Shown here: piece by piece, positions 43,313 to 61,604 of the stretch
Layout of the letters: every line of letters starts with the position of its first letter
Numbering within the stretch: position 1 is the first letter of the stretch
NCBI RefSeq assembly: GCF_041154485.1
Contig: NZ_AP028669.1
Coordinates: forward strand, 3,906,001-3,970,000
Direction: 5' to 3'
Length of the DNA stretch: 64,000 nucleotides
Source: Variovorax sp. V93
GTDB taxonomy: Bacteria > Pseudomonadota > Gammaproteobacteria > Burkholderiales > Burkholderiaceae_C
Notes under the pieces: generated by a model
What the model was told of the DNA's origin: nothing
The model's database searches: none
What the model saw: the letters and a program-made list of their open reading frames with translations, nothing else
Made by a program: the position numbers and the translations under genes

Positions 43313-44245
43313 TCAGGACACCACCTGGTAGTACAGGTTCTGCGGGTGCTTCGCCTGCGCGAAGAAGAACCAGCGCTCCGCCAGCAGGCCGGGCGCCTGC
43401 ACCAGCACCGCCAGCGGCCACGGCCACGCGGCCCCGCTGGCAACGCCCCACAGCAGCAACAGCGAAGGCAGCACGAAGGCCAGCAGCAGGAAGCCGAGCT
43501 TCATGTTCTTGAGCGCGGCCAGCGTGGCGCCATGAAAGAACTCGCGTGTGTTGAACGAGCCGGCCGACATGCCCATCGACTTTTGCGTGAGCTTCTCGGC
43601 GCGGATGCCGGTGGCCGATTGCAGCGTCGACTTGTGGCGGATCGCCGCGTTGCGCTTGAGCGCCCCACCGCGCGCGGCCCATGCAGCGAGCGTGGCGGCG
43701 AGTGCCCAGGGTCCGAACAACTGCACGAAGCGCGACTCGCCCGCCAATGCGGCCAGCGCACAGGCCAGCACCAGCCCCGACGACAGGCCGATGAGCGTGA
43801 AGTTGACGACGGTGAGCGGATGCGCCCATTCCTCGATGAAGCGCAGGCAGGCGTAGATCATGGCGGTGCAGTACCAGAGCGCGGCCGCGCCACACAGCAC
43901 CAGCACCGGCAGCAGCCACGACCATGGCGCGCCGGCGCCGAAGCGCAGCGACAGCCACCACAGCGCCACCAGCGCGATGAAGGCCGGCAGCACGATGACT
44001 TCGCGCGACATCCACGAGGTGCGCCACATCAGCACCGCGCGCCATGCGCGGCTCTTGCGGCCCAGGTGCATGAACGAGGCCGCGAGGCCGGCCGCGAGCA
44101 GCACTTCGGCCACGCCCAGCGCCAGCGCGAGAAAGCCGGGCGCGGGCGCGAAGCCCAGCAGCACCGCGAGCGCGAGCGCGACGACCAGGCCCTGCGCGGC
44201 GCCGGCCAGCGTGGTGAAGAAAAGAATGGAGAACGCGGGATGCAT
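43313..44245 (-). CDS. soeC: Sulfite dehydrogenase membrane anchor (SoeC-like)
   Basis: 310 residues with about eight transmembrane helices of the DmsC family (MHPAFSILFFTTLAGAAQGL to the end). Known: SoeC is a DmsC-type anchor that passes electrons from cytoplasmic SoeAB to the quinone pool. It follows soeB by 4 bp on the same strand. The choice of sulfite dehydrogenase over DMSO reductase rests on SoeA lacking a Tat signal and on the neighbourhood of sulfite-releasing enzymes (SuyAB, Xsc). It is therefore a contextual call; generic DmsC remains possible. Confidence 0.8.
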   Translation of the reverse strand: MHPAFSILFFTTLAGAAQGLVVALALAVLLGFAPAPGFLALALGVAEVLLAAGLAASFMHLGRKSRAWRAVLMWRTSWMSREVIVLPAFIALVALWWLSLRFGAGAPWSWLLPVLVLCGAAALWYCTAMIYACLRFIEEWAHPLTVVNFTLIGLSSGLVLACALAALAGESRFVQLFGPWALAATLAAWAARGGALKRNAAIRHKSTLQSATGIRAEKLTQKSMGMSAGSFNTREFFHGATLAALKNMKLGFLLLAFVLPSLLLLWGVASGAAWPWPLAVLVQAPGLLAERWFFFAQAKHPQNLYYQVVS

Positions 44246-44249
44246 CGGG

Positions 44250-45080
44250 CTACTCCTGCCCTGCGGTCTGCTGCGTCACGTGGCGCGGCAGGTACTGGTT
44301 GGCCGGGCTGGTCTCCCACTCGGGCATCAGCTGGTAGCCGCCGCGTTCGCGGATGGCCTTCGACACTTCGGAGTCCGGATCCTTCACGTCGCCGAACAGG
44401 CGCGCGCCGGTGGGGCAGGCCTTCACGCAGGCGGGCTTGCGGTCTTCCTTGGGCAGGTGCTCGTCGTAGATGCGGTCGACGCACAGCGTGCACTTGGTCA
44501 TGACCTGGCGCTCCTCGTCGAGCTCGCGCGCGCCGTAGGGGCAGGCCCATGCGCAGTACTTGCAGCCGATGCACTTGTCGTAGTCGACCAGCACGATGCC
44601 GTCTTCCTTGCGCTTGTAGCTGGCCCCCGTGGGGCACACGGGCACGCAGGGCGGGTCTTCGCAGTGCAGGCAGCTCTTGGGGAAGTGGACCGTCTGCGTG
44701 GCCGGGAAGGTGCCGGCCTCGTAGGTCTGCACGCGGTTGAAGAAGGTGCCGGTGGGATTGGCGCCGTAGGGCTGCGCGTCCGCCAGCGGGCCGGCGCTGC
44801 CGGAGGTGTTCCACTGCTTGCACGAAGTGACGCAGGCATGGCAGCCGACGCAGACGTTGAGGTCGATGACGAGGGCGAGTTGTTTGGCGAGGGTTTCGCC
44901 CGGTTCGGCGCGTACGCTGGCATTTCTCCCTCCCCTTCCGGGGGAGGGCTGGGGTGGGGGCGCGGCGGCTTTCATTGAAGCATGGCGATCGGTTCCAGCG
45001 CCGCTGCCCCCACCCCTGCCCTCCCCCGGAAGGGGAGGGAGTAGATCCGGGGACATCAAATCCTTGAGCCACTGCATCAT
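44250..45080 (-). CDS. soeB: Sulfite dehydrogenase iron-sulfur subunit (SoeB-like)
   Basis: 276 residues from the ATG at 45080, which overlaps the soeA stop (ATGA), so the start is firm. From about residue 70 it is a standard four-cluster ferredoxin-type subunit: CVGCHACVTSCKQWN, CLHCEDPPCVPVCPTGA, CIGCKYCAWACPYGAR and CTLCVDR..CVKACPTGA. Residues about 13-52 are instead a Pro/Gly-rich stretch encoded by the double palindrome at 44926-45041, inserted in frame between the short N-terminus (MMQWLKDLMSPD) and the first cluster. The core is intact, so function is probably kept. Confidence 0.87.
   Translation of the reverse strand: MMQWLKDLMSPDLLPPLPGEGRGGGSGAGTDRHASMKAAAPPPQPSPGRGGRNASVRAEPGETLAKQLALVIDLNVCVGCHACVTSCKQWNTSGSAGPLADAQPYGANPTGTFFNRVQTYEAGTFPATQTVHFPKSCLHCEDPPCVPVCPTGASYKRKEDGIVLVDYDKCIGCKYCAWACPYGARELDEERQVMTKCTLCVDRIYDEHLPKEDRKPACVKACPTGARLFGDVKDPDSEVSKAIRERGGYQLMPEWETSPANQYLPRHVTQQTAGQE
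44926..45041. repeat. GC-rich double palindrome inside soeB (copy B)
   Basis: Left arm 44926-44968 and right arm 45001-45041 are near-perfect inverted copies, each able to fold on itself (CCCTCCCCTTCC/GGGGGAGGG). The same element is intergenic at 27137-27237. Here it lies wholly inside the soeB reading frame and is translated as PLPGEGRGGG ... PQPSPGRGG. Confidence 0.88.
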
Positions 45081-48022
45081 TTCTTCCCCCTCCCCGCAAA
45101 GTACGTCAACACGCTCGCCGCCTTCCCCAGCACTCCCGGCGCACTCGGCATGCTCGCCATCTGCGGAAAGCTTTCTTCCGGCTCGCCCGGTTCCGCGGGC
45201 CGTATGCGCACGCGCACGTCGTACCAGCCCGCCTGGCCCGTGACCGGATCCGAGTTGCTGATGCGGCCGCTCGCGGTGCCCGCGCAGGGCAGCTCCTCGC
45301 TGATCAGGTGGTTGAGCAAAAAGCCCTTGCGCGCCTCGTCCGCACCGGGTGCCAGTTGCCAGGCGCCATCGGCCTTGCCGATCGCGTTCCAGGTCCACAC
45401 CGTGCCGGGCTCCACCGCCTCGCTGTAGCGCAGCATGCAGCGTACCTGGCCCCACTGGCTCTCGACCCAGCACCAGCCACCGTCGGCAATGCCCGCGGCC
45501 TGCGCGGTGAGCGGGTTCACGTGCAGGTAGTTGTGGCTGTGGATCTGCCTGAGCCACGCGTTCTGCGAATCCCACGAGTGGTACATCGCCATCGGCCGCT
45601 GGGTGATGGCGTTGAGCGGGTAGGTGTCCAAATCGGTCGAGGCCTCCTCGAGCGGCGGGTACCAGAAAGGCAGCGGATCGAAATACGTGTCGATGCGTTC
45701 GCGCAGCGCATCGGGCGGCTGCCGGCCCGCGCTCTTGCCCTGCGCGGCCAGGCGGAAGCTCTGCAGCGTGTCGGAGTACAGCGCCAGCTGCACCGGGTCG
45801 TTGCGCTGGCGCCAGCCCTTGTCCTTTGCGAAGTCGAGGTACTCGCGGTTCCAGTTGCGCATGTAGTGCATGGTCTCGGGCATGTGGTACTGGAACACGC
45901 AGTTGTTCTGCGCATAGGCCTCCCACTGCTTGGGGTTGGGCTCGCCGCGCAGGTGCTCGGTGCCGTCCTTGCCGCGCCAGCCCATCAGAAAGCCGATGCC
46001 CGGCTGCGGCTGGAAGTTGACGACAAAGTCCGGATAACCCGTGAACTTGCGGCCGCCCTCGGGCGTGGTGAAGGCCGGAAACTTCAGGCGCGAGGCCAGC
46101 TCGATCAGCACTTCCTGGAAAGGCTTGCACTGGCCGGTCGGCGGCACCACCGGAATGCGCACCGAATCGACCGGCCCGTCGAACTCCGAGATCGGCCGGT
46201 CGAGCATGCTCATCACGTCGTGCCGCTCGAGGTACGTGGTGTCGGGCAGCACCAGGTCGGCAAAGGCCACGGTCTCGCTCTGGAAGGCGTCGCACACCAC
46301 CAGGAAGGGAATCATGTGCTCGCCCTTCTCGTCCTTGCGGTTGAGCATCTCGCGCACGGCCATGGTGTTCATGCTGGAGTTCCAGGCCATGTTGGCCATG
46401 AAGATCAGCAGCGTGTCGATGCGGTAGGGGTCGCCCTTGACCGCATTGGTGATCACGTTGTGCATGAGCCCATGGGCCGACAGCGGATGCTCCCACGAGA
46501 ACGCATGGTCGATGCGGATCGGCGAGCCGTCGGGGTTGATGGCCAGCTCTTCCGGGTTGGCCGGAAAGCCCAGCGGCGCGGCATTGAGCGGCGTGTTGGG
46601 CTGGATCATGCCGGGGTCGTTGAAGGCGCGGTAGTTGGGCACGATGTGGCGCGGGTACGGCGCCTTGTGGCGGAAGCCGCCGGGCGCGTCGATGGTGCCG
46701 AGCACGCTCATCAGCACCGCCAGCGCGCGCACCGTCTGGAAGCCGTTCGAATGCGCCGCGAGCCCGCGCATGGCGTGGAAGGCCACGGGCCGCGCCTGTG
46801 TGGTCGCACGCTTCTTGCCCCAGGCATCGGTCCATGCAATGGGCAGTTCGAAGGCTTGCCTGAGCGCGGTCTCGCCCATCTCGCGCGCGAGCTTGCGGAT
46901 GCGCTGCGCATCGATGCCGGTGATGGCCTCGGCCCACTCGGGCGTGCAGCTGGCCACGCGATCGCGCAGCAGCTGGAACGAGGGTGCGACGCGCGTGCCG
47001 TCGGCCAGCGTGTAGTGACCCTCGAGTGCCGGGTCGCAGCCGTCGGCAATGCCTTCGGGGTAGGCGTTCTTCACGCTGCCTTCGCTCAAGTCCCACACCA
47101 GCTTGTTGTGCGGATGGCGGCCGTCGCCGGGCGGCCCGCGCGCGGGGTCCGGGTCGAACGCGAACAGGCCCTGGCGCTCGCAGTCGTCCAGCACCACGAG
47201 CTGCGGCGCATTGGTGAAGCGCTTGAGAAAGGCGTGGTCGATCAGGTCGCTCGCGATCAGCTCGTGCAGCAGCGCCATGAACAAGGCGCCGTCGGTGCCG
47301 GGCTTGATCGGAATCCATTCGTCGGCAATGGCCGAGTAGCCCGTGCGCACCGGGTTGATCGAAATGAAGCGGCCGCCCGCGCGCTTGAACTTGCTGATGG
47401 CAATCTTCATCGGGTTGCTGTGATGGTCCTCGGCCGTGCCGATCATCACGAACAGCCTGGCGCGGTCGAGGTCGGGCCCGCCGAATTCCCAGAAACTGCC
47501 GCCGACGGTGTAGATCATTCCCGCGGCCATGTTGACCGAGCAGAAGCCGCCGTGCGCCGCATAGTTGGGCGTGCCGAACTGGCGCGCGAACAGGCCCGTG
47601 AGCGCCTGCATCTGGTCGCGGCCTGTGAAGAGCGCGAACTTCTTCGGGTCGGTCGCACGGATCTTGCCGAGCCGCTCGGTGAGCATGTCGAAGGCGCGCT
47701 CCCAGCTGATGGGCTCGAACTCCCCGGCCCCGCGCTCGCTGCCGGCCTTGCGCAGCAGCGGCTGCGTCAGGCGCGCGGGCGACACCTGCTTCATGATGCC
47801 CGACGAGCCCTTGGCGCAGATCACGCCCTGGTTCAGCGGATGCGCGGGATTGCCGTCGATGTAGCGCACCTCCGGGCCATGCTCGCCATCGCGCAGGTGC
47901 ACGCGGATGCCGCAGCGGCAGGCGCACATGTAGCAGGTGGTGGTCTTGACCTGGGTGTGGGCCGTGGGCGTGGGGGCGTCGAGCGGATCGTGGACGGGCT
48001 CTCGGGACAGGAAGCTGAACAC
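45077..48022 (-). CDS. soeA: Sulfite dehydrogenase molybdopterin subunit (SoeA-like)
   Basis: 981 residues, starting GTG at 48022 with an AAGGA ribosome binding site. DMSO reductase family: N-terminal [4Fe-4S] motif with Cys at 30, 33, 37 (TTCYMCACRCG) and a fourth in GVICAKG near 69; then the molybdo-bis(MGD) domains (PISWERAFDMLTERLGKI, FAEP-like and MYHSWDSQNAWLRQIHSHNYL near the end). No Tat signal, so cytoplasmic, as in SoeABC sulfite dehydrogenases and unlike DmsA. Known: SoeABC oxidises sulfite to sulfate and feeds quinone. Neighbours SuyAB and Xsc release sulfite, which fits. Divergent from a LysR gene. Confidence 0.85.
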   Translation of the reverse strand: MFSFLSREPVHDPLDAPTPTAHTQVKTTTCYMCACRCGIRVHLRDGEHGPEVRYIDGNPAHPLNQGVICAKGSSGIMKQVSPARLTQPLLRKAGSERGAGEFEPISWERAFDMLTERLGKIRATDPKKFALFTGRDQMQALTGLFARQFGTPNYAAHGGFCSVNMAAGMIYTVGGSFWEFGGPDLDRARLFVMIGTAEDHHSNPMKIAISKFKRAGGRFISINPVRTGYSAIADEWIPIKPGTDGALFMALLHELIASDLIDHAFLKRFTNAPQLVVLDDCERQGLFAFDPDPARGPPGDGRHPHNKLVWDLSEGSVKNAYPEGIADGCDPALEGHYTLADGTRVAPSFQLLRDRVASCTPEWAEAITGIDAQRIRKLAREMGETALRQAFELPIAWTDAWGKKRATTQARPVAFHAMRGLAAHSNGFQTVRALAVLMSVLGTIDAPGGFRHKAPYPRHIVPNYRAFNDPGMIQPNTPLNAAPLGFPANPEELAINPDGSPIRIDHAFSWEHPLSAHGLMHNVITNAVKGDPYRIDTLLIFMANMAWNSSMNTMAVREMLNRKDEKGEHMIPFLVVCDAFQSETVAFADLVLPDTTYLERHDVMSMLDRPISEFDGPVDSVRIPVVPPTGQCKPFQEVLIELASRLKFPAFTTPEGGRKFTGYPDFVVNFQPQPGIGFLMGWRGKDGTEHLRGEPNPKQWEAYAQNNCVFQYHMPETMHYMRNWNREYLDFAKDKGWRQRNDPVQLALYSDTLQSFRLAAQGKSAGRQPPDALRERIDTYFDPLPFWYPPLEEASTDLDTYPLNAITQRPMAMYHSWDSQNAWLRQIHSHNYLHVNPLTAQAAGIADGGWCWVESQWGQVRCMLRYSEAVEPGTVWTWNAIGKADGAWQLAPGADEARKGFLLNHLISEELPCAGTASGRISNSDPVTGQAGWYDVRVRIRPAEPGEPEESFPQMASMPSAPGVLGKAASVLTYFAGRGKK

Positions 48023-48103
48023 TGGCGGTCCTTCTTTTTTTGCGGGGCTGCGCCGATGTTAGAGAGCCTCGATCAAACGAAAAAGCGGAGAATATCGCTC
48101 ACG

Positions 48104-49039
48104 ATGACCGGAAAAACAGATCAGCAGCACACCGCCCAGCGGCTTCGCCTCAACCTGCGCCAGCTCGAGGTGTTCGTGGCCACGGCCCGGGGCGGCAGCA
48201 CGCGCGCCGCGGCCGACCGCGTCGCGCGCTCGCAGTCGGCCGCGAGCAGCGCACTGGCCGACCTGGAGTCTTCCGTCGGCGCCCTGCTGTTCGACCGGCT
48301 CGGCCGCCGCCTGGTGCTCAACGAGAACGGCCGCGCGCTGCTGCCCAGGGCCCAGGCCCTGCTCGACCAGGCCGGCGAAGTGGAGGCGCTGTTCAGCGGC
48401 GAGCATGCGGCGCCGCTGCGCGTGGCAGCCAGCTTCACCATCGGCGAATACCTGCTGCCCGAGCGCGTATCGCAATGGACGGCGCTGCATCCGCAGAGCC
48501 AGGTGCACCTGCACATCGCCAACACGCGCGACGTGATCGAGGCGGTGGCGGGGTTCGATGTCGACGTCGGCTTCATCGAGGGGCCGCAGACCCACCCCGA
48601 CCTCGTGGTGCGCGCATGGCGCGAGGACGAGCTGGTGATCGTGGCCGCGCCGGGGCATCCGCTCGCCAGGCGCATCGCCACGCACCACCAGCTCTCGCAG
48701 GCCACCTGGGTGCTGCGCGAGCACGGCTCGGGCACGCGCCAGGTCACCGATGCGTGGCTGATCCAGAATCTGGAACAGGTGCGCGTGGGCTTCGAGCTCG
48801 GCAGCACCGAGGCCATCAAGCGCGTGGTGGCCTCGGGCACCGGGCTGGCCTGCCTCTCGCGCTACACGGTGGCGCAGGCGCTGGAAGACGGCCACCTGAT
48901 CGAGCTGCGCACGCGGCTGCCGGCGGGCATGCGGCGGCTGGCCACGGTGATGCATCGCGACAAGCTGCTCGGCCGCGCCACCGCCGATTTCCTGCGGCAC
49001 TGCGGGGCGACGGTGCCGCGCATGCCGGCCGCGCGCTAG
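48104..49039 (+). CDS. LysR-type transcriptional regulator
   Basis: 311 residues from ATG 48104; an alternative ATG at 48056 would add 16 codons. N-terminal winged helix (LRLNLRQLEVFVATARGGSTR and the following AAADRVARSQSAASSALADL) and a periplasmic-binding-like effector domain (VAASFTIGEYLLPERV ... STEAIKRVVASGTGLACLS). The domain closely follows the CysB/CbbR-type layout. Divergent from soeA (81 bp between starts), the usual position for a regulator of its neighbour. Inferred: controls soeABC in response to sulfite or a sulfonate-derived signal. Tail-to-tail with the GntR gene (15 bp apart). Confidence 0.9.
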   Translation: MTGKTDQQHTAQRLRLNLRQLEVFVATARGGSTRAAADRVARSQSAASSALADLESSVGALLFDRLGRRLVLNENGRALLPRAQALLDQAGEVEALFSGEHAAPLRVAASFTIGEYLLPERVSQWTALHPQSQVHLHIANTRDVIEAVAGFDVDVGFIEGPQTHPDLVVRAWREDELVIVAAPGHPLARRIATHHQLSQATWVLREHGSGTRQVTDAWLIQNLEQVRVGFELGSTEAIKRVVASGTGLACLSRYTVAQALEDGHLIELRTRLPAGMRRLATVMHRDKLLGRATADFLRHCGATVPRMPAAR

Positions 49040-49054
49040 GCTGCGCAGCGCCGC

Positions 49055-49825
49055 TCAGGCCGGCCGCGACAGCAGGTGCACGTACTCGTACTGCGCCGTG
49101 TTGATGGTCGAGACGCGGTACTCCACCGGCTTGTCGCCGAAGCTGAGCGCGGTGCGCCGCACCTCCATCACCGGCGCGCCCGGCGCCACGCCAAGGATGC
49201 GCACCACGCTGCGGTCGGCCGCGATCGCGCGTGCACGCTCGCGCGCCAGCGTCACCGTGATGCCGAACTCGGTCTGGTAGAGGTGGTAGATGGTGCTCGG
49301 CCGTTCGCGAAAGCGCTTCTCGGTCAGGCCCTTGAACAGCAGCGCCGGCAGCGTGAGCCGGTCGTGGATCACCGCCCGGCCCTGCAGCAGCAGCCGGTTG
49401 TCGATCTGGATGGCGGGCTCGCCGGTTCGCAGGCCCAGCGCCTGCGCGGGCTCCTCGTCCATGCGCACGCGCTCGAAGGCGACGAACTCCACCTGCGGCG
49501 CCTGCCGGAGACCGTCGCTGCGCTCCACATGGAAGAACTGGAACATGAAGCGGTCGTCGTTGTGCACTGCAACGAAGGTGCCGCGCCCCTGCCGCCGCAC
49601 GAGGATGTGCTCGGCCACCAGGTCGTCGGTGGCGTGGCGCAGCGTGCCGATCGACACGCCGAGCGCCGCCGCCAGCTCGCTCTCGCTCGGCAGCACGCTG
49701 CCGGCCGCGCAGCGTCCCGATTCGATGGCGCGCAGCAGCGAGCGCTTGACGAGCCGGTAGAGCGGCGCGCCCGCGGACTCGGCGGAAATCGGTTCGAACG
49801 CGGAGATGTCTGTCGAGCGGGGCAT
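49055..49825 (-). CDS. GntR-family regulator (HutC/UTRA type)
   Basis: 256 residues. Winged helix at about 22-90 (LYRLVKRSLLRAIESG, LPSESELAAALGVSIGTLRHA), ending in the typical GRGTFVA. Followed by a UTRA ligand-binding domain (about 105-250: RVRMDEEPAQALGLRTGEPA, YHLYQTEFGITV, YRVSTINTAQYEYVHLL). Divergent from suyA with 126 bp between starts, including an inverted repeat at 49861-49874. Inferred: a sulfolactate- or sulfopyruvate-responsive repressor of suyAB-slcC-comC. The ligand is not derivable from sequence. Confidence 0.92.
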   Translation of the reverse strand: MPRSTDISAFEPISAESAGAPLYRLVKRSLLRAIESGRCAAGSVLPSESELAAALGVSIGTLRHATDDLVAEHILVRRQGRGTFVAVHNDDRFMFQFFHVERSDGLRQAPQVEFVAFERVRMDEEPAQALGLRTGEPAIQIDNRLLLQGRAVIHDRLTLPALLFKGLTEKRFRERPSTIYHLYQTEFGITVTLARERARAIAADRSVVRILGVAPGAPVMEVRRTALSFGDKPVEYRVSTINTAQYEYVHLLSRPA

Positions 49826-49860
49826 GGCGCATTGTGGCGGCCGGATCGCGATTCATCCAA

Positions 49861-49874
49861 GTCATCCATATGAC
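49861..49874. promoter_or_regulatory. Candidate GntR operator upstream of suyA
   Basis: GTCAT-CCAT-ATGAC, an inverted repeat midway between the divergent gntR and suyA starts, with an extra TCATCC half-copy at 49852. A TTGACA box follows at 49879-49884 that could be the suyA -35; the -10 is weak. Half-sites of this size suit a GntR dimer. Confidence 0.5.
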
Positions 49875-49951
49875 CTGTTTGACACGCGGAGACGCGCACT
49901 CGGACACTGGCCCGGCTGCAAATTCTCAGCGAGTCACAACAGGAGACAACG

Positions 49952-50233
49952 ATGATTCATTTCGTTCTGCATGACGCGAAGGACACGGTCGCGGTCGTGG
50001 TGGTGGAAGGCGTCAAGGCCGGCATGTCGCTCAGCGGCTGGATCATGGACGAGGACCGCATGACCAGCGTCGATGCGCGCCAGGACATCCCGATTGGCCA
50101 CAAGGTCGCCCTCAAGGACATGGCGCCCGGCGACACGGTGTGGAAGTACGGCATCGACATGGGCAAGGTGGTGGCGCCGATCAAGGCCGGCGAGCACGCG
50201 CACGTCCAGAACATCAAGACCAAGCGCTGGTAG
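49952..50233 (+). CDS. suyA: (2R)-sulfolactate sulfo-lyase, small subunit
   Basis: 93 residues, a SAF-domain protein ([20 protein letters not shown] ... [19 protein letters not shown]). Length and sequence match SuyA. Reaction with SuyB: (R)-sulfolactate to pyruvate + sulfite. Cytoplasmic. Strong ribosome binding site (CAGGAG) in a leader shared almost word for word with the Bug receptor gene at 53451. First gene of suyA-suyB-slcC-comC-receptor; 52 bp before suyB. Confidence 0.93.
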
Positions 50234-50285
50234 GCCCCTGCCCCGCTTCGCCAATTCCACATCACCACGAACCCGAAAGCACAGC

Positions 50286-51461
50286 ATGTCCATCATTTCC
50301 AAAGACACCACCTTCCTCGGCTACCGCCGCGAAAACGGCCGCGTCGGCGTGCGCAACCACGTCATCATCCTGCCGCTGGACGATCTCTCCAACGCGGCCG
50401 CCGAGGCGGTGGCCCACAACATCAAGGGTGCGCTCGCCATTCCGCATCCCTACGGCCGCCTGCAGTTCGGCGCCGACCTGGAGCTGCACTTCCGCACGCT
50501 GATCGGCGCGGGCTGCAACCCGAATGTGGCGGCGGTCGTCGTCATCGGCATCGAGGACAGCTGGACGCAGAAGGTGGTCGACGGCATCGCCGCCACGGGC
50601 AAGCCGGTGGCCGGCTTCGGCATCGAGGGCCATGGCGACCACGACACCATCCTGCGCGCGAGCAAGGTGGCGCGCGAGTTCGTGCAGGCCGCGAGCGAGA
50701 AGCAGCGCGAGCCCTGCGGCATCCACGAACTCTGGGTCTCGACCAAGTGCGGCGAGAGCGACACCACCTCGGGCTGCGGCTCCAATCCCACCGTGGGCAA
50801 CGCCTTCGACAAGCTCTACGAGACCGGCAACACGCTGGTGTTCGGCGAGACCTCCGAGATCACCGGCGGCGAGCGCATCGTGGCCGAGCGCTGCCGCACG
50901 CCCGACGTGAAGGAGCGCTTCATGTTCATGTTCAACCGCTACCAGGACATGATCAACCGCCACAAGACCAGCGACCTGTCGGACTCGCAGCCCACCAAGG
51001 GCAACATCGCGGGCGGCCTGACGACCATCGAGGAAAAAGCGCTCGGCAACATCCAGAAGATCGGCAAGAAGTGCATGGTGGACGGCGTGCTCGACAAGGC
51101 CGAGATGCCCACCGGCCCGGGCCTGTGGTTCATGGACTCGTCCAGCGCGGCGGCCGAGATGGTGACGCTGTGCGCCGCCTCGGGCTACGCGGTGCACTTC
51201 TTCCCCACGGGCCAGGGCAACGTGATCGGCAACCCGATCCTGCCGGTCATCAAGATCTGCGCCAATCCGCGCACCGTGCGGCTCATGAGCGAACACGTCG
51301 ACGTCGACACCTCGGGCCTGCTGCAACGCGAGATGACGCTCGACCAGGCCGGCGACCAGCTGCTCGAATGCATGCTACGCACCGCCAACGGCCGGCTCAC
51401 CGCGGCCGAAGCGCTGGGCCACCGCGAGTTCGTGCTGACGCGGCTGTACGAGTCGGCCTGA
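50286..51461 (+). CDS. suyB: (2R)-sulfolactate sulfo-lyase, large subunit
   Basis: 391 residues, UxaA/altronate dehydratase-like large subunit. Features: [75 protein letters not shown], and the late [19 protein letters not shown]. The Cys and Glu residues that in this family hold an iron centre are present. Known: SuyAB is an iron-dependent C-S lyase. Distinguished from altronate dehydratase by its exact partner and neighbours (slcC, comC, xsc). Confidence 0.94.
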
Positions 51462-51486
51462 CGGCGCCCGCGCAACGGAAAGCATC

Positions 51487-52416
51487 ATGAAGCGAATAGT
51501 GATTGCGGAGTTCATGGACGCCGCCGCGGTTGCGCAACTGCGCGAGCGGCACGACGTGCTCCACGACGTCGCCCTGGTGGACGACGGCGCCCGGCTCTAC
51601 CAGGAAGCGAAGTGGGCCCATGCGCTCATCGTGCGCAACCGCACGCAGGTGCGCGGCGAGCTGCTGGATGCGCTCACGCAGTGCACGGTGGTGGGCCGCC
51701 TGGGCGTGGGCCTCGACAACATCGACGTGGCGGGCTGCGAAGCACGCGGCATCCGGGTGATTCCGGCCACGGGTGCCAATGCACTGAGCGTGGCCGAGTA
51801 CGTGATCGCGAGCGCGATGATGCTGCTGCGCGGCGCCTACGGCTCCACCGCCGCGGTGGCCGCGGGGCGCTGGCCGCGCAACGCGCTGTCGAACGGGCGC
51901 GAGCTGGCGGGCAAGACGCTCGGGCTGGTCGGCTTCGGCGCCATCGGGCAGCTGACGGCGCGGCTCGCGCGGGCGCTGGGCATGCGCACGGTGGCCTTCG
52001 ACGCCATGATGGACGGCAGCCACCCGGCCTTCGCCGCAACGGGCACGCAGCCGCTGGGCCTCGACGCGCTGGTGGCGCAGGCCGACGTGGTGAGCCTGCA
52101 CCTGCCGCTGGTGGACGGCACGCGCAACCTGTTCCACGCGGCGCGCATCGCGGCCATGAAGGGCGGCGCGGTGCTGGTCAACACCTCGCGCGGCGGCATC
52201 GTCGACGAAGCCGCCGTGGCGCTTGCGCTGCGCGAAGGCCGGCTCGGCGGCGCGGCGCTCGATGTGTTCGAGGCCGAACCGCTGGCGGCCAGCCCGCATT
52301 TCGTGGACTGCCCCAATCTGCTGCTGACACCGCACATCGCAGGCGTGACGGCCGAGTCGAACGAGCGCGTGAGCAGCCTGATTGCGCAGAAGGTGCTGGA
52401 GGCGCTGGAACCATGA
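51487..52416 (+). CDS. slcC: (S)-sulfolactate dehydrogenase
   Basis: 309 residues, D-2-hydroxyacid dehydrogenase fold. NAD-binding GKTLGLVGFGAIGQLTARLA in the middle; catalytic Arg in NTSRGGIVDE, Glu in DVFEAEPLA and His in LLTPHIAGVT. Known: SlcC oxidises (S)-sulfolactate to 3-sulfopyruvate with NAD+, the first half of the racemising pair with ComC. Between suyB (25 bp upstream) and comC (ATGA overlap), which fixes the call over other hydroxyacid dehydrogenases. Confidence 0.92.
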   Translation: MKRIVIAEFMDAAAVAQLRERHDVLHDVALVDDGARLYQEAKWAHALIVRNRTQVRGELLDALTQCTVVGRLGVGLDNIDVAGCEARGIRVIPATGANALSVAEYVIASAMMLLRGAYGSTAAVAAGRWPRNALSNGRELAGKTLGLVGFGAIGQLTARLARALGMRTVAFDAMMDGSHPAFAATGTQPLGLDALVAQADVVSLHLPLVDGTRNLFHAARIAAMKGGAVLVNTSRGGIVDEAAVALALREGRLGGAALDVFEAEPLAASPHFVDCPNLLLTPHIAGVTAESNERVSSLIAQKVLEALEP

Positions 52417-53414
52417 CGATGCTGAGTCTTCAGCAGGCGCGCGACGCCGTGGCCGCGGCACTGCGCGCGGCCGGCGCGAACGATGCGACGGCGGCGGCCG
52501 CCGCGCGTGCGCTGGTGCTGGCCGAGGCGCAAGGCATGGGCTCGCACGGGCTCTCCCGCGTGGCCCAGTACGCCACGCACCTGCGCAACGGCCGGGTGAA
52601 TGGCAGCGCGGTGCCGGCGCTGCGCCGCCAGAAAGGCGCGGCGGCGCTGATCGATGCGCACGAGGGCCTGGCCTTCGCGGCCTGCGAGATGGCCGTTGCC
52701 GAGGCCATCGGCCGCGCGCGCGACTTCGGCATTGCGATTGCGGGCGTCACGGGCAGCCACCACTGCGGCGTGGTGGTCGACCATTTGCGGCCGGTGGCGG
52801 AGGCCGGCATGGTCGGGCTCGGCTTTGCCAACTCGCCGGCCGCGATGCCGGCGGCCGGCGGGCGCCATCCCATCTTCGGGACCAATCCGGTGGCGGCGAT
52901 CTTTCCGCGCCGCGGTGCGCTCCCCCTCGCCATCGACCTGAGCCTGTCGGAAGCGGCGCGCGGCAAGGTCATGGTGGCCGCGAAGCAGGGCAAGGCCATA
53001 CCGGCCGGCTGGGCCGTCGACCGCAACGGCCTGCCGACCACCGACGCGCAGGCGGCGCTCGAAGGCTCGATGCTGCCCATCGGTGCGGCCACCAGCCCCA
53101 AGGGCGCGATGCTGGCACTGGTGGTCGAGCTGCTCGTCACTGCGCTGATCGGTGCGCAGTTCGGCTTCGAGGCCTCGAGCTTCTTCGAGGATGCCGGCAA
53201 CCGGCCGCGCATCGGCCAGGCCTTCATCGTCATCGACCCCGGCGCGCTCGCGGGCTCTGCGAGCTACCTCGACCGCGTCGAGGTGCTGGTGGCCGAGATG
53301 CTGCGCGACGACGGCGTGCGCCTGCCCGGCGCGCGGCGCGAGGAACTGCGGCTGCGCGCCGAGGCAGGGGGCATCGAGGTGCCCGAGGTGCTGCTCGCGC
53401 AGTGGCGAAGCTAG
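52413..53414 (+). CDS. comC: (R)-sulfolactate dehydrogenase
   Basis: 333 residues, LDH2/malate-type dehydrogenase family (unrelated to the SlcC fold). Signatures GMGSHGLSRVAQYATHLRNG, GVTGSHHCGVVVDHLRP with the catalytic His, and the NADP-binding FGTNPVAAIFPR. Known: ComC reduces sulfopyruvate to (R)-sulfolactate, the substrate of SuyAB. Start overlaps slcC stop (ATGA). The C-terminal part is slightly shorter than archaeal homologues. Together with slcC it converts the S enantiomer to the R enantiomer. Confidence 0.92.
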   Translation: MTMLSLQQARDAVAAALRAAGANDATAAAAARALVLAEAQGMGSHGLSRVAQYATHLRNGRVNGSAVPALRRQKGAAALIDAHEGLAFAACEMAVAEAIGRARDFGIAIAGVTGSHHCGVVVDHLRPVAEAGMVGLGFANSPAAMPAAGGRHPIFGTNPVAAIFPRRGALPLAIDLSLSEAARGKVMVAAKQGKAIPAGWAVDRNGLPTTDAQAALEGSMLPIGAATSPKGAMLALVVELLVTALIGAQFGFEASSFFEDAGNRPRIGQAFIVIDPGALAGSASYLDRVEVLVAEMLRDDGVRLPGARREELRLRAEAGGIEVPEVLLAQWRS

Positions 53415-53450
53415 GCGCCACTACCCCACACAACAACAGGAGACAACACG

Positions 53451-54443
53451 ATGAAACGACGCGAATGGATGCAGGGGACCGCCGCCCTGGCGGCGACGGG
53501 ATCGCTGGGCTCGCTGATACCGGTGCTGGCCCGGGCGCAAGGCGGCGACTACCCCCGGCCGGACGCCACGCTGCGCTACGTGGTGCCCTTTCCCCCGGGC
53601 GGCCTGACGGACGTGATGGCGCGGCAGATCGGCCAGCAATTGGGCGAGCGCTGGAAGGTCAACGTGCTGGTGGACAACCGGCCCGGCGGCAACGGGCAGA
53701 TCGGCGCCGACCTCGTGGCCAAGGCGCCGCCCGACGGCAACACGCTGCTCGCGGTCACGCTCACGCATGCGGCCAACGTGACGCTGTTCCCGAAGTCGCC
53801 GTTCAGCTTCCAGAAGGACCTGCGGCCGGTGGCGCTGCTGGCCGGCAGCCCGATGCTGGTCGTGGTGCCCGTGGCCAGCCCCATCCAGGACCTGAAGGGC
53901 CTGGCCGCGGCGGCGAAGGAGCGCAAGCTCAACGCCGGCTCCAGCGGCAACGGCACGCCGCCCCACCTGACGCTCGCGCTCTTCAACGACCTCAACAAGT
54001 CGAGCATCCAGCACGTGCCCTACAAGGGCGGTGCGCCCTGCATCACCGATCTCATCGGCAGCCAGCTCGACGTGGTGTTCTCGAACCTCCCGGAGTCGAT
54101 CGCGCACGTGAAGGGCGGCAAGCTGCGCGCGCTCGCCATCGCGAGCAAGGCCCGCTATCCGCTGCTGCCCGAGGTGCCGACCACCGCCGAAGCCGGCATG
54201 CCCGCGCTGCAGGTGGAGAACTGGACCGGCATGATGGTGCCGGCCGGCATGCCCGATGCCGCGGTGCAGAAGCTGGGCGCGGAGGTGGTGAAGATCCTCG
54301 CGCAGCCCGGCCTCGACGAGCGCATGCGCCAGCAGGGCTTCGTGATCGATGCGCGCGGGCCGGACCGCTTCGCGCCGTTCCTGGCCGACGAGATCGCGCG
54401 CTGGGCGCACGTCATCAAGGCCGCGTCTATCCAGCCTGGCTGA
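53451..54443 (+). CDS. Bug-type substrate receptor (tripartite tricarboxylate transporter)
   Basis: 330 residues. N-terminal twin-arginine-like signal (MKRREWMQGTAALAATGSLG) with cleavage near ARAQG. TctC/Bug fold: LRYVVPFPPGGLTDVMARQI, VLVDNRPGGNGQIGADLVAK, HVPYKGGAPCITDLIGSQLD and the late TTAEAGMPALQ. 36 bp after comC with the same CAACAGGAGACAAC leader as suyA. Inferred: captures sulfolactate (or a related sulfonate) in the periplasm. No TctA/TctB membrane genes are nearby. Its 3' end overlaps the convergent ackA by 17 bp. Confidence 0.9.
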   Translation: MKRREWMQGTAALAATGSLGSLIPVLARAQGGDYPRPDATLRYVVPFPPGGLTDVMARQIGQQLGERWKVNVLVDNRPGGNGQIGADLVAKAPPDGNTLLAVTLTHAANVTLFPKSPFSFQKDLRPVALLAGSPMLVVVPVASPIQDLKGLAAAAKERKLNAGSSGNGTPPHLTLALFNDLNKSSIQHVPYKGGAPCITDLIGSQLDVVFSNLPESIAHVKGGKLRALAIASKARYPLLPEVPTTAEAGMPALQVENWTGMMVPAGMPDAAVQKLGAEVVKILAQPGLDERMRQQGFVIDARGPDRFAPFLADEIARWAHVIKAASIQPG

Positions 54444-55626
54444 GCAGCCGCGCCGTGTGGCGCGCGATCACGGCCTCTTCGTCGGTGCGCAGCACCCAGG
54501 CGCTCACGGGGCTTTCAGGCGTCGTGAGCCGTGCATGGCCCGCGCGGTTGGCCGCTGCGTCGACACGCAGGCCGAGCCAGCCGCATTCCTCGAGGATGCG
54601 CTCGCGCAGCGCGGCGGCGTTCTCGCCGATACCGCCGGTGAACACGATGGCGTCCACGCCGCGCAGCGCCGCGGCCAGGCTGCCCATGTGCTGCACCACC
54701 TGCTCGGTGAAATGCGCGATGGCTTCGGCCGCGGCGGGCGCGGCCGAAGCCTCCAGCTCGCGCATGTCGCTGGAAATTCCCGACAGCCCGAGCAGGCCCG
54801 ACTCGCGGAACAGCAGCTTCTCGACACCGTCCACCGACATGCCCTGCGAGCGCATCAAATACAGCACCACGGCCGCATCGAGGTGCCCGCAGCGCGTGCC
54901 CATGGTGAGGCCGTCGAGCGGCGAGAAGCTCATCGTCGTTGCCACCGACCGCCCCTCGGCCATGGCGCACATCGACGCGCCATTGCCCAGGTGCGCGACG
55001 ATCACGCGCTGGCGTGCGAGCTGCGGCGCCAGCTGCGCGAACTGCGTCACGATCGACTCGTAGGACAGGCCGTGGAAGCCGTAGCGCCGCACGCCCGCGT
55101 CGTGCAGCGCGCGCGGCAGCGCGAAACGGCGGTTCACATCGGGCTGGGTCGCATGGAAGGCGGTGTCGAAGCACGCCACCTGTGGCACGCCATCGAAAGC
55201 CTTCATGGCGGCGCGCACGCCCGCGAGGTTGTGCGGCTGGTGCAGCGGCGCGAGCGGCTCGAGCGCGGCCAGCTCGGCAAGCACCGCATCGTCGATGCGC
55301 ACCGGCTCTATGAAGTTGGCGCCGCCATGCACGATGCGATGGCCGACCGCTGCGATGCGGCCGCCCTCGCCCTGCTGCGCATGCCATGCGAGCAGCGCGG
55401 CCAAGGCGCCCTGGTGCGAGCGGCTGCCGCCTTCCAGCGCCGCATCGTGCAGCGTGCGGCCCTCCGCATCGCGCACCCGCAGCCGCGCCTTCAGCCCCGC
55501 GCCCAGGCCGTCGGCCTGGCCCGACCAGCGCGCGGCGGGCAGCGCACCGCCCTCGCCGGGCGCATCGAACAGCGCGACCTTGATCGACGACGACCCGGCA
55601 TTCAGCGTGAACAGCGATTCGCTCAA
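54427..55626 (-). CDS. ackA: Acetate kinase
   Basis: 399 residues from a TTG start at 55626 that overlaps the xsc stop (TTGA), so translation is coupled to xsc. ASKHA-fold kinase: SLFTLNAGSSSIKVALFD, GHRIVHGGANF, FDTAFHATQPD, the phosphate loop VAHLGNGASM, and FTGGIGENAAALRE. The usual MGTRSGDLDP reads MGTRCGHLDA. Reaction: acetyl phosphate + ADP to acetate + ATP. In most aerobic Xsc operons pta sits here instead. Convergent with the Bug receptor gene. Confidence 0.93.
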   Translation of the reverse strand: MSESLFTLNAGSSSIKVALFDAPGEGGALPAARWSGQADGLGAGLKARLRVRDAEGRTLHDAALEGGSRSHQGALAALLAWHAQQGEGGRIAAVGHRIVHGGANFIEPVRIDDAVLAELAALEPLAPLHQPHNLAGVRAAMKAFDGVPQVACFDTAFHATQPDVNRRFALPRALHDAGVRRYGFHGLSYESIVTQFAQLAPQLARQRVIVAHLGNGASMCAMAEGRSVATTMSFSPLDGLTMGTRCGHLDAAVVLYLMRSQGMSVDGVEKLLFRESGLLGLSGISSDMRELEASAAPAAAEAIAHFTEQVVQHMGSLAAALRGVDAIVFTGGIGENAAALRERILEECGWLGLRVDAAANRAGHARLTTPESPVSAWVLRTDEEAVIARHTARLLSQAG

Positions 55627-57446
55627 ACGTAGTCCTTGTACTTGTCGAGGAAGCGCACCGGCTTGGACAGCGCATCGCGGCGGAACGGATCGCCGAGCTC
55701 GCGGGTGCACATGATCTCGATCACGCAGGTCTTGCCCTGGTTCATCTGCATGTCGATGGCCTTCTTGAGGGCCGGGCCCACGTCTTCGAGCCTGTCGACC
55801 ACAATGCCCTCGGCGCCCATGGCCTTGGCGATGCCCGCGAAGCTCTCGCTCTCGAGCTCGCCCGCGACGAAGCGGCGGTTGTAGAAGTCGACCTGGTTCT
55901 TCTTCTCGGCGCCCCACTGGCGGTTGTGGAAGACCACGGCCGTCACCGGAATGTCGTGCCGCACGGCAGTCATGATCTCGACCATGCTCATGCCCCAGGC
56001 GCCGTCGCCGGCATAGGCTACCGCCGGGCGGTCGGGCGCCGCGCACTTGGCGCCGATCATGGTCGGCAGCGAGTAGCCGCAGTTGCCGAAGCTCATCGGC
56101 GCGAAGAAGCTCCTCGGCTCCTCGAAGCGCAGGTAGCTGTTGGCAATGGCGTTGATGTTGCCGATGTCGGTGGAAACCATCACGCGCGGCGGCATGGCCT
56201 TCTCGAGCTCGCGCAGCACCTGGCGCGGGTGCAGGTAAGTGCCGCCGGTGGGCGTCTTCTCGCCCTTGGCTTCCTCGATGGCGTCGAGGCTGAACTGGTC
56301 GCGCTCGTGGGTCCACTCGTCGAGCTCTTTTTCCCACGCGGCCTTCTCGGCCTGGATCTTGTCGGCGCGCTGGGCCTTGGTAGCGTCGCAGGCGAGCGTC
56401 TTGCCCTGCAGGCGCCTGAGCAGTTCCTTGGCCGTGGCCTTGGCGTCGCCGTGGATGCCGACGGTGATCTTCTTCACGAGGCCCAGGTTGGTGTGGTCGG
56501 CCTCCACCTGGATGATCTTCGCGTCCTTCGGCCAGTAGTCCATGCCGTGCTGCGGCAAGGTGCCGAAGGGCCCCATGCGCGAGCCGAGCGCAAGCACCAC
56601 GTCGGCCTGCGCGATCAGCTTCATTGCGGCCTTGGACCCCTGGTAGCCGAGCGGGCCGGCCCACAGCGGATGGCTCGCGGGGAACGAGTCGTTGCGCAGA
56701 TAGCCGTTGGCCACGGGTGCGCCCAGGCGCTCGGCCAGCGCCTTGCACTCCTCGACCGCATCGCCCATCACCACGCCGCCGCCCGAAAGGATCACCGGGA
56801 ACTTCGCCGAGGCCAGCAGCTCGACGGCCGCGTTCAGGCTCATCTCGCCGCCCGCGCCGCGCTCCACGCGCATGGGCTTCGGGATCTCGGTGGTGATCTC
56901 GCCATAGAAATAGTCGCGCGGAATGTTGAGCTGCGTCGGGCCCATCTCGGAGATGGCGCGGTCGAAGCAGCGCGCCGTGTACTCGGCCATGCGCTTGGGG
57001 TTGTTCACGTGGCCCTGGTACTTGGTGAACTCCTGGAACATCGGCAGCTGGTTGGCTTCCTGGAAGCCGCCCAGGCCCATGCCCATGGTGCCGGTCTCGG
57101 GCGTGATCATCACCACCGGGCTGTGCGCCCAGTAGGCGGCCGCGATGGCCGTCACGCAGTTGCTGATGCCGGGGCCGTTCTGGCCGATCACCACGCCGTG
57201 GCGGCCCGACACGCGCGCATAGCCGTCGGCCATGTGGGCGCCGCCCTGCTCGTGCACCACCGGGACCAGGCGGATGCCGGCGGGCGCGAAGATGTCCATC
57301 GCGTCCATGAAGGCCGAGCCCATGATGCCGAAGATGTCGGTCACGCCGTTGGCGACCATGGTCTCGACGAAGGCCTCGGAGGGCGTCATCTTCTGCACGC
57401 CGGCGACGGCTTCGCGGGTGGGTGCGGCGGGTTGCTTCTGGCTCAT
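55623..57446 (-). CDS. xsc: Sulfoacetaldehyde acetyltransferase
   Basis: 607 residues, full length. ThDP enzyme: N-terminal Glu in VVHEQGGAHMADGYARVSG, ThDP/Mg motif GDGAWGMSMVEIMTAVRHDI plus VFHNRQWGAEKKNQ, and the Xsc-type start MTPSEAFVETMVANGVTDIFG. Reaction: sulfoacetaldehyde + phosphate to acetyl phosphate + sulfite, cytoplasm. Start at 57446 is preceded by a textbook promoter (57528-57556) and divergent from an IclR gene. Followed by ackA in overlap. Sulfoacetaldehyde could come from the SauS-like enzyme at 63425 or from sulfopyruvate if a decarboxylase exists outside the window. Confidence 0.96.
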   Translation of the reverse strand: MSQKQPAAPTREAVAGVQKMTPSEAFVETMVANGVTDIFGIMGSAFMDAMDIFAPAGIRLVPVVHEQGGAHMADGYARVSGRHGVVIGQNGPGISNCVTAIAAAYWAHSPVVMITPETGTMGMGLGGFQEANQLPMFQEFTKYQGHVNNPKRMAEYTARCFDRAISEMGPTQLNIPRDYFYGEITTEIPKPMRVERGAGGEMSLNAAVELLASAKFPVILSGGGVVMGDAVEECKALAERLGAPVANGYLRNDSFPASHPLWAGPLGYQGSKAAMKLIAQADVVLALGSRMGPFGTLPQHGMDYWPKDAKIIQVEADHTNLGLVKKITVGIHGDAKATAKELLRRLQGKTLACDATKAQRADKIQAEKAAWEKELDEWTHERDQFSLDAIEEAKGEKTPTGGTYLHPRQVLRELEKAMPPRVMVSTDIGNINAIANSYLRFEEPRSFFAPMSFGNCGYSLPTMIGAKCAAPDRPAVAYAGDGAWGMSMVEIMTAVRHDIPVTAVVFHNRQWGAEKKNQVDFYNRRFVAGELESESFAGIAKAMGAEGIVVDRLEDVGPALKKAIDMQMNQGKTCVIEIMCTRELGDPFRRDALSKPVRFLDKYKDYV

Positions 57447-57599: not shown

Positions 57600-57610
57600 A
57601 AGACTATGAT
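57581..57610 (+). promoter_or_regulatory. Possible iclR promoter, leaderless transcript
   Basis: TTGTCT (57581-57586), 18 bp, TATGAT (57605-57610). Transcription would begin about 57617, at or next to the ATG at 57618, giving a leaderless mRNA; no ribosome binding site is visible before that ATG. Confidence 0.4.
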
Positions 57611-57617
57611 CCGCCCC

Positions 57618-58442
57618 ATGAAGATCGTCAAAGGGCTTGTGCCCGAAATCCCTGAGCCGGCGCCGGGCGACACGCCCACCATGCGCCTGTTCGGGCTGCT
57701 CGAAGTCATGGCCGCCAAGGACCAGCGCTACTCGCTGCAGGGCCTGGTGGAAGAGACCGGCATGCCCAAGCCCACCCTGCACCGCATGCTCCAGCAGCTC
57801 GAAGGCGCGGGCCTGCTGCAGCGCGAGGGCGACGGCCGCCACTACGGCATCGGCACGCGGCTGCGGCGGCTGGCCGAGAACCTGCTGCTCAACGACAGCC
57901 TCCACGGTGCGCGCCATACGGTGCTGCGTCAACTGGTGGAGGAAATCGGCGAGAGCTGCAACCTCACCGCGCTCTCGGGCAGCGAGGTGGTGTACCTCGA
58001 CCGCGTGGAAACCGCCGCGCCGCTGCGCTTCTACCTGCACTCGGGCTCGCGCGTGCCGGTGCACTGCTCGGCCAGCGGCAAGATCTTTCTCGCGCAGATG
58101 AGCGCGGCGCAGCGCCGCCGCCTGCTCTCCAACGCGCCGCTGGAGCCCTACACGCCCCGCACGCTGACCGACCCCGACGCGCTCGAAAAGGAAGTGCAGC
58201 GCGTGCGCAAGGACGGCTTTGCCATCGACAACGAGGAGTTCCTGCCCGGCCTGCTGTGCATTGCCGCGCTGGTGCCTTCGGGCGACGACGGCCCCTCGAA
58301 CCTGTGCATCGCGGTGCAGGCGCCGGTCATGCGGCTCGATGCCGCGAAGGCCAAGACGCTGCTGCCCGCGCTGCAGCGCGCCGCCCAGGCGCTGAGCCGC
58401 ATCGATGCCGACGCGGGCACCACCAGCCGCGCGCAGGCCTGA
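57618..58442 (+). CDS. IclR-family regulator beside xsc
   Basis: 274 residues from ATG 57618 (an ATG at 57606 would add four residues but falls inside the likely -10). Winged helix at about 22-75 (MRLFGLLEVMAAKDQRYSL, TGMPKPTLHRMLQQLEGAGLL) and the IclR effector domain (VEEIGESCNLTALSGSEVVYLD, VHCSASGKIFLAQM, ending with the Cys-containing PGLLCIAALVPS). Divergent from xsc across a 10-19-10 inverted repeat. Inferred ligand: sulfoacetaldehyde pathway intermediate such as sulfoacetate. 27 bp before the CobS-like gene on the same strand. Confidence 0.9.
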   Translation: MKIVKGLVPEIPEPAPGDTPTMRLFGLLEVMAAKDQRYSLQGLVEETGMPKPTLHRMLQQLEGAGLLQREGDGRHYGIGTRLRRLAENLLLNDSLHGARHTVLRQLVEEIGESCNLTALSGSEVVYLDRVETAAPLRFYLHSGSRVPVHCSASGKIFLAQMSAAQRRRLLSNAPLEPYTPRTLTDPDALEKEVQRVRKDGFAIDNEEFLPGLLCIAALVPSGDDGPSNLCIAVQAPVMRLDAAKAKTLLPALQRAAQALSRIDADAGTTSRAQA

Positions 58443-61476: not shown

Positions 61477-61575
61477 GAAAGAAGCAAAACCTGAAACGTT
61501 TAGAACTACATCCAAGTCCCCGATTGACAAAGCGGACGATCAGTTCAAACATTGCGTCTCATATCCAGGAACAAC

Positions 61576-61592
61576 GTTCCAATATTTGGAAC
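61576..61592. promoter_or_regulatory. Candidate IclR operator before second iclR gene
   Basis: GTTCCAA-TAT-TTGGAAC, perfect 7-3-7 inverted repeat, ending 13 bp before the ATG at 61605. Size and TTCCA/TGGAA half-sites resemble IclR-family boxes; position predicts autorepression. Confidence 0.6.
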
Positions 61593-61604
61593 ATCCGGAG
61601 CCCC

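Follow-up and report, generated by a model that had tools for sequence, protein, structure and literature searches.

Within a window of 64,000 nucleotides from Variovorax sp. V93 (bases 3906001–3970000 on the larger contig of a two-contig, 6.74 Mb genome), genes for two sulfite-releasing sulfonate lyases stand beside those for a SoeABC-type sulfite dehydrogenase. The order is soeC-soeB-soeA on the minus strand, a YeiE-type LysR regulator gene (+), a GntR gene (−), suyA-suyB-slcC-comC-tctC (+) and ackA-xsc (−) (Table 1); sauS continues past the right edge of the window, followed by a sauT-like ligase gene and then a TauE-family gene. A sequence-only reading had set the cluster at 43313–57446, limits that coincide exactly with the stop of soeC and the ATG of xsc, and profile searches confirm the gene identities behind its claim that lyases and SoeABC-type enzyme lie side by side; the genes that it listed are real, but it omitted the YeiE-type LysR gene between soeA and GntR. 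We conclude that this is very probably one end-to-end locus leading from organosulfonates to sulfate, in which SoeABC would dispose of the sulfite.

SoeABC has the anatomy expected of A, B and C subunits. Sequence inspection places the CYMCACRC motif of SoeA early in the N terminus and identifies zero membrane segments; no export signal is seen, the open frame of 993 residues leaving about a dozen residues ahead of the GTG start. SoeB contains dicluster domains with the cysteines for four Fe–S clusters (16 in all), and the DmsC-type anchor is encoded together with the A and B subunits. These features agree with the cytoplasmic location proposed earlier for the enzyme. No SorA or SoxC candidate was found in the genome, whose sole PF00174 match is MsrP: as SorA this gene scores 45.3 against 600 bits, as MsrP 482.9 against 207, and a gene for MsrQ follows it.

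Presence of SoeA tracks that of Xsc. Across 51 Variovorax genomes, our own included (matches counted at E up to 1e-150), Xsc occurs in 25 and SoeA in 23, with both in 23, Xsc only in 2, SoeA only in 0 and neither in 26 (Fisher p 1.5e-12; kinship is ignored in this and the next two tests). The family sample (n = 120) gives 10 genomes with both, 4 with Xsc only, 11 with SoeA only and 95 with neither (p 2e-6), that is, SoeA in 10 of 14 Xsc genomes versus 11 of 106 without Xsc. At the level of the order (n = 120; both 9, Xsc only 6, SoeA only 28, neither 77; p 0.012) the bond is weaker, at 9 of 15 versus 28 of 105. The two genes are also close neighbours: among the 23 genus genomes that hold both, 20 have them at a distance of 1.3 to 15.6 kb.

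The same linkage recurs outside Variovorax in differing layouts (L and G numbers are our handles for loci and genomes). Among 80 named SoeA loci (the top matches out of at least 589), many with short flanks, at least 16 have xsc, suyB or sauS in the flanks fetched. A same-strand xsc-ackA-soeABC run with gaps of 24 and 35 bp occurs in Limnohabitans and a Comamonadaceae metagenome-assembled genome (MAG; L015, L016), xsc-pta-soeABC on one strand in a Rhodoferax MAG (L013), and xsc-pta-soeA on a Comamonas MAG contig that ends within soeA (L021). Three Polynucleobacter loci show an IclR-pta-soeABC run that sits between sauS and xsc. Paraburkholderia has suyAB-slcC-comC-soeABC (L030) and suyAB-comC-soeABC (L027), both with 1.6–1.7 kb of DNA without an assigned gene after suyB, and a third locus with sauS; in Trinickia, xsc lies about 6.5 kb from soeA. 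We placed 85 SoeA rows (the 80 named loci, the window and 4 of 20 fetched genus loci) on a tree from a quick search under LG+G4, drawn midpoint-rooted, with 20 linked, 37 unlinked long-flank and 28 short-flank rows. All 20 linked rows fall in one 34-row group (98% by the Shimodaira–Hasegawa-like approximate likelihood-ratio test, SH-aLRT), which includes nine long-flank rows without a link, and the linkage label changes 11 times versus 18.1 in shuffles. The neighbourhood is more than chance, and the tight soeA–xsc bond is a trait of Variovorax and some relatives; co-occurrence and repeated linkage in differing layouts thus uphold the coupling of lyases to SoeABC that the sequence-only reading had put forward.

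The enzymes that would feed SoeABC are of two kinds. Xsc scores 1055 bits against a cut-off of 676 (TIGR03457, an NCBIfam equivalog), AckA 349.5 against 293.4 (TIGR00016, a subfamily model) and SauS 750 against 600 (NF047625). Among 120 listed relatives of SuyB that carry a source name, many are called ‘(2R)-sulfolactate sulfo-lyase subunit beta’, others ‘UxaA family hydrolase’, ‘D-galactarate dehydratase’ or ‘Altronate dehydratase’; a galactarate dehydratase assignment is weakened by a score of 144 against 731 bits (TIGR03248) and by gene context. SuyA has no match in Pfam or NCBIfam, and the small SuyA open reading frame (ORF), a UxaA-type SuyB and sulfolactate dehydrogenase-like genes adjoin one another as expected for SuyAB. 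The SuyAB sulfolactate sulfo-lyase of Paracoccus pantotrophus likewise has a small and a large subunit, whereas the Variovorax suyAB lies between xsc-ackA and soeABC. A fused SuyAB (462-aa ORF, 50073–51461) is a start-codon artefact, the listed relatives having about 391 residues and suyA being a separate upstream ORF. For ComC the best of five matched NCBIfam models is L-sulfolactate dehydrogenase (NF040650), at 191 bits under its cut-off of 500. Relatives’ names and context make sulfolactate cleavage the most likely function of SuyAB; SlcC and ComC are putative assignments by superfamily and context, and position suggests that the GntR/UTRA regulator probably controls this cassette and that its TctC-type protein probably serves sulfolactate uptake. 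Because it combines the suyAB cassette, xsc-ackA and sauS with genes in the SauT position and of the TauE family, the locus most likely serves both sulfolactate and sulfoacetate.

Read at length, the 19 soe-linked Variovorax xsc loci (the window and 18 fetched loci, the distribution of suyAB being that within fetched loci) contain GntR-suyAB-slcC-comC-tctC between ackA and the YeiE-type gene in nine cases and lack it in ten. The core thus consists of xsc-ackA and soeABC, with the cassette as an optional insert, and the tighter partner of soeABC in this genus is therefore xsc. A locus of V. boronicumulans (L012), for instance, has xsc-ackA, the YeiE-type gene and soeABC but lacks suyAB within the stretch fetched, and one of V. 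beijingensis (L011), in a stretch that stops short of xsc, has the suyAB cassette, ackA, the YeiE-type gene and soeABC. By eye, further inserts of about 2.7–3 kb separate the YeiE-type and GntR genes, holding a 934-aa ORF (L011, L119) or an extra LysR-like ORF (L120). The gene after xsc also varies: ackA in most fetched Variovorax loci, pta in L131–L133 and in the Rhodoferax and Comamonas loci, which represent two different fates of acetyl phosphate. Three PTA_PTB matches occur in the genome, one of them a phosphate acetyl/butyryltransferase gene within the window at 33395–34423, about 20 kb from xsc.

Of the 20 fetched genus loci, 19 (all but L126) have the LysR gene in divergent orientation to soeA, among them L135 and L136, where xsc is on another contig or 456 kb off. 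In another genus of the family (L148:14703-20000), soeA again has a YeiE-type gene (68% identity) facing it, and xsc-pta lies some 12 kb away. The Variovorax protein passes the PRK10837 YeiE-like subfamily model (NF008095, 327.8 bits versus 281), and its best PDB match is 8sbf, a LysR-family regulator with no finer name, followed by the YeiE proteins 7erp with 7erq, and 8sbh. Residue counts from the profile and 7erp alignments equate Glu 157 of the 48110–49039 translation with YeiE Glu145, and every one of the 22 readable rows in a 24-row alignment conserves this residue. Glu145 reportedly discriminates sulfite from sulfate (PMC12423496), and YeiE is described as binding sulfite and driving yeiH in Salmonella (PMC12880088). 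The Variovorax protein is thus likely to be a sulfite sensor, and its position suggests control of soeABC. It resembles the YeiE of the YeiE/YeiH systems of Salmonella and Hyphomicrobium in LysR subfamily, in the Glu145 equivalent and in standing beside a sulfite-handling gene, but differs in that this neighbour is soeABC, not yeiH; a full-text search found no paper joining yeiE with soeA.

Loci without the oxidising enzyme can carry an exporter gene instead. We compared ten xsc loci whose genomes have no SoeA match (L137–L145 and L114) with 22 soe-linked xsc loci (the window, 18 fetched genus loci and L148–L150): a YeiH-type gene, defined by its match to the L137 protein, occurs in 5 of 10 versus 0 of 22 (Fisher p 0.001). 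The L137 protein has a strong match to Pfam PF03601, and both it and the L145 protein fall under the cut-off of TIGR00698 (YeiH family). The gene stands beside xsc in both Variovorax genomes that have Xsc only, G038 (L145) and G012 (L114, partial at the locus end); in L138 it lies behind cobST, not directly after pta, and L039, a SoeA locus without xsc, has a weak YeiH-type match (36%). The LysR gene close to the YeiH-type gene of L145 was tested for YeiE-type identity and failed. Five of the ten loci have neither SoeABC nor a YeiH-type exporter. Pfam searches with 18 chosen ORFs near xsc in ten loci where soeA is missing or elsewhere, a minority of the unassigned ORFs there, returned one YeiH-type protein, one pta product, 13 with other families and three without a match. 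These data leave the odds about even that xsc adjoins an interchangeable sulfite-disposal slot, filled by a YeiH/PSE exporter or by SoeABC, and that in Variovorax the YeiE-type sensor controls the oxidising enzyme instead of YeiH.

Onto these observations of genes, anatomy, co-occurrence and repeated linkage, the protein families allow a pathway to be projected. SlcC/ComC would oxidise or epimerise sulfolactate, which SuyAB would split into pyruvate and sulfite; sulfoacetate would be activated by the SauT-like ligase and reduced by SauS to sulfoacetaldehyde, which Xsc would convert to acetyl phosphate and sulfite, with AckA predicted to turn the acetyl phosphate into acetate and ATP. A cytoplasm-facing SoeABC would then oxidise sulfite to sulfate, passing two electrons to the quinone pool, while the divergent YeiE-type regulator may sense sulfite and induce soeABC.

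Several observations weigh against so unified a picture. soeA and xsc are on different contigs in 2 of the 23 genus genomes with both and 456 kb apart in a third, and two genus genomes have Xsc only, G038 and G012 (the latter 62% complete, its xsc cut by a contig end). Where both genes are present, close linkage is limited to 3 of 10 genomes of the family sample (our own, G215 and G257) and to 2 of 9 of the order sample (our own and G113), with more than 1 Mb between the genes in the one-contig genomes G184 and G276. SoeA often occurs without Xsc outside the genus (28 of 120 order and 11 of 120 family genomes), which means that its role is not confined to sulfonates. In one Variovorax genome soeA (L134, G025:C2:2957285-2960222) gives two overlapping matches, owing to a frameshift or a sequencing error, and the LysR protein stays under the cut-off of the YeiE equivalog (NF040889, 348.5 versus 480 bits). 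With a TauE-family gene in the same locus, just right of the window, sulfite export may also run in parallel with oxidation. Going further, a TauE-family exporter could be the main route, SoeABC acting mainly on other sulfite, for example from thiol-compound degradation. This would fit the YeiH-type genes of half the xsc loci in SoeA-less genomes, the proposal that in Variovorax paradoxus TBEA6 SoeABC deals with sulfite from thiodipropionate (PMC6370202) and the reported excretion by a Paracoccus of sulfite from sulfolactate cleavage (PMC12421959). We consider it unlikely: the TauE gene trails sauST rather than xsc or suyAB, the soe genes share a strand with xsc-ackA or xsc-pta in the Limnohabitans, Rhodoferax and Comamonas loci, and none of the 22 soe-linked xsc loci has a YeiH-type match.

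The identity of SoeA bears on whether the complex acts on another substrate, as a thiosulfate, polysulfide or tetrathionate reductase-like member of the dimethyl sulfoxide (DMSO) reductase family whose adjacency to the lyases would be secondary. Its best NCBIfam matches are indeed thiosulfate reductase PhsA and DMSO/selenate reductase, there is no SoeA model among the 25 NCBIfam families that it matches, a thiosulfate reductase heads its PDB matches, and NCBI names some relatives ‘formate dehydrogenase’. However, SoeA falls far short of the cut-off with every one of the thiosulfate, tetrathionate, DMSO and other reductase models (PhsA 213 versus 694 bits), and other relatives are named ‘sulfite dehydrogenase (quinone) subunit SoeA’. 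Together with the missing export signal, the DmsC-type anchor and the strong link to sulfite-releasing enzymes, these scores and names make a different substrate very improbable. The window SoeA shares 98% identity with its Variovorax beijingensis counterpart and 66–68% with homologues from Thioalkalivibrio, Gallionella and Sulfuricella; the SoeA tree holds no reductase outgroup. Least credible of all is the chance adjacency of two unrelated metabolic islands, for which one could cite the presence of the suyAB cassette in just 9 of 19 soe-linked Variovorax loci and the rarity of close linkage beyond the genus; it is contradicted by the survey, in which all SoeA genomes of the genus nest within the Xsc genomes, and by linkage in several genera with different layouts.

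SoeABC of Allochromatium vinosum, the type case, serves lithotrophic sulfur oxidation. By description rather than by sequence, the Variovorax complex resembles it as a cytoplasmic Mo/Fe–S sulfite-oxidising complex, but its partners are sulfonate lyases. In Cupriavidus necator, sulfoacetate is degraded through sauRSTU with Xsc and a TauE exporter; the Variovorax locus shares SauS over its cut-off, a SauT-like ligase, an IclR regulator and a TauE-family gene, and differs by SoeABC, AckA after xsc and TctC-type binding proteins. Closest in arrangement is Ruegeria pomeroyi DSS-3 (SPO3557–3562), where SPO3561 is presumably xsc. There, as in Variovorax, soeABC adjoins sulfonate genes, the tags SPO3557–3559 (soeC, soeB, soeA) lying next to SPO3560 (pta) and SPO3562 (tauR); the context is taurine, and the excerpted account has no ackA or sulfolactate cassette (PMC4334477). 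A review table already gives soeABC the role of ‘sulfite detoxification after liberation from organo-sulfur molecules’ (PMC5573963). The sequence-only reading had put the cluster forward as the strongest candidate for a ‘coherent, under-described system’ in the window; its coherence is upheld by linkage, and its novelty is qualified by this review and the Ruegeria precedent. Oxidation of sulfonate-derived sulfite by soeABC has also been proposed for Microcystis-associated phototrophs (PMC11089705) and the Roseobacter RCA cluster (PMC10675870), with soeABC in the same genome; the excerpts consulted list genes and transcripts and describe no such locus. Judged by titles and the starts of abstracts among the matches listed, we found no paper on this betaproteobacterial soeABC/xsc/sulfolactate locus. 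The kind of system is already known; the likely sulfite sensor and the possible oxidise-or-export slot are the new part. In aerobic bacteria, the way in which toxic sulfite from C2 and C3 sulfonates is disposed of decides whether sulfur leaves as sulfite or sulfate, and whether energy is gained. The locus puts forward candidates for both the enzyme and the sulfite sensor, and the genus also holds an exporter as alternative; with SoeABC lying beside xsc in freshwater Limnohabitans and Polynucleobacter as well, the choice between oxidation and export is directly testable.

Table 1. Features of the sulfonate–sulfite locus, in window coordinates; positions prefixed L005 are counted in that fetched locus.
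Feature	Position	Strand	Basis
soeC, DmsC-type membrane anchor, 310 aa	43313..44245	-	Pfam DmsC, 65.2 bits (cut-off 22.3); hydrophobic segments
soeB, iron-sulfur subunit, 16 Cys	44250..45080	-	4Fe-4S dicluster domains
soeA, molybdopterin catalytic subunit, 981 aa, GTG start	45077..48022	-	Molybdopterin domains; CYMCACRC motif
Divergent region between soeA and YeiE-type gene, 81 bp	48023..48103		Alignment across related loci
YeiE-type LysR regulator	48104..49039	+	PRK10837 subfamily score; PDB matches; start set from alignment of related loci
GntR/UTRA regulator	49055..49825	-	Profile; cassette role suggested by position
suyA, sulfolactate sulfo-lyase small subunit, 93 aa	49952..50233	+	ORF with upstream AGGAG; kept beside suyB in relatives
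suyB, sulfolactate sulfo-lyase large subunit, 391 aa	50286..51461	+	PF04295 and PF20629; names of near relatives
slcC-like D-2-hydroxyacid dehydrogenase	51487..52416	+	Superfamily match
comC-like Ldh_2-family dehydrogenase	52413..53414	+	Superfamily match
TctC-type substrate-binding protein	53451..54443	+	Profile; substrate suggested by position
ackA, acetate/propionate kinase family	54427..55626	-	TIGR00016; TTG start overlaps xsc stop
xsc, sulfoacetaldehyde acetyltransferase	55623..57446	-	TIGR03457
IclR regulator, divergent from xsc	57606..58442	+	Profile
Second IclR regulator, SauR-like by position	61524..62417	+	Profile
TctC-type binding protein before sauS	62414..63406	+	Named by likeness and position; adjoins sauS in some relatives
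sauS, acylating sulfoacetaldehyde dehydrogenase	63425..64000, past window (L005:5426-6865)	+	NF047625
sauT-like AMP-forming ligase, after sauS	L005:6921-8450		Pfam; SauT position
TauE-family gene, after sauT-like ligase	L005:8512-9312		Pfam

Two further groups of genes stand out in the window. cobS/cobT-like genes (58470–61201) adjoin xsc here and also in the Rhodoferax, Limnohabitans, Comamonas and Polynucleobacter loci; both fall under their NCBIfam cut-offs, and a vitamin B12 link is unsupported, a CobN match being absent from the genome; they stand as an orphan AAA/VWA pair near xsc. On the far side, molybdenum hydroxylase genes resembling PaoA and PaoC (Fe–S and Mo subunits; 38376–42303) lie just left of a gluconolactonase-like gene that adjoins soeC.

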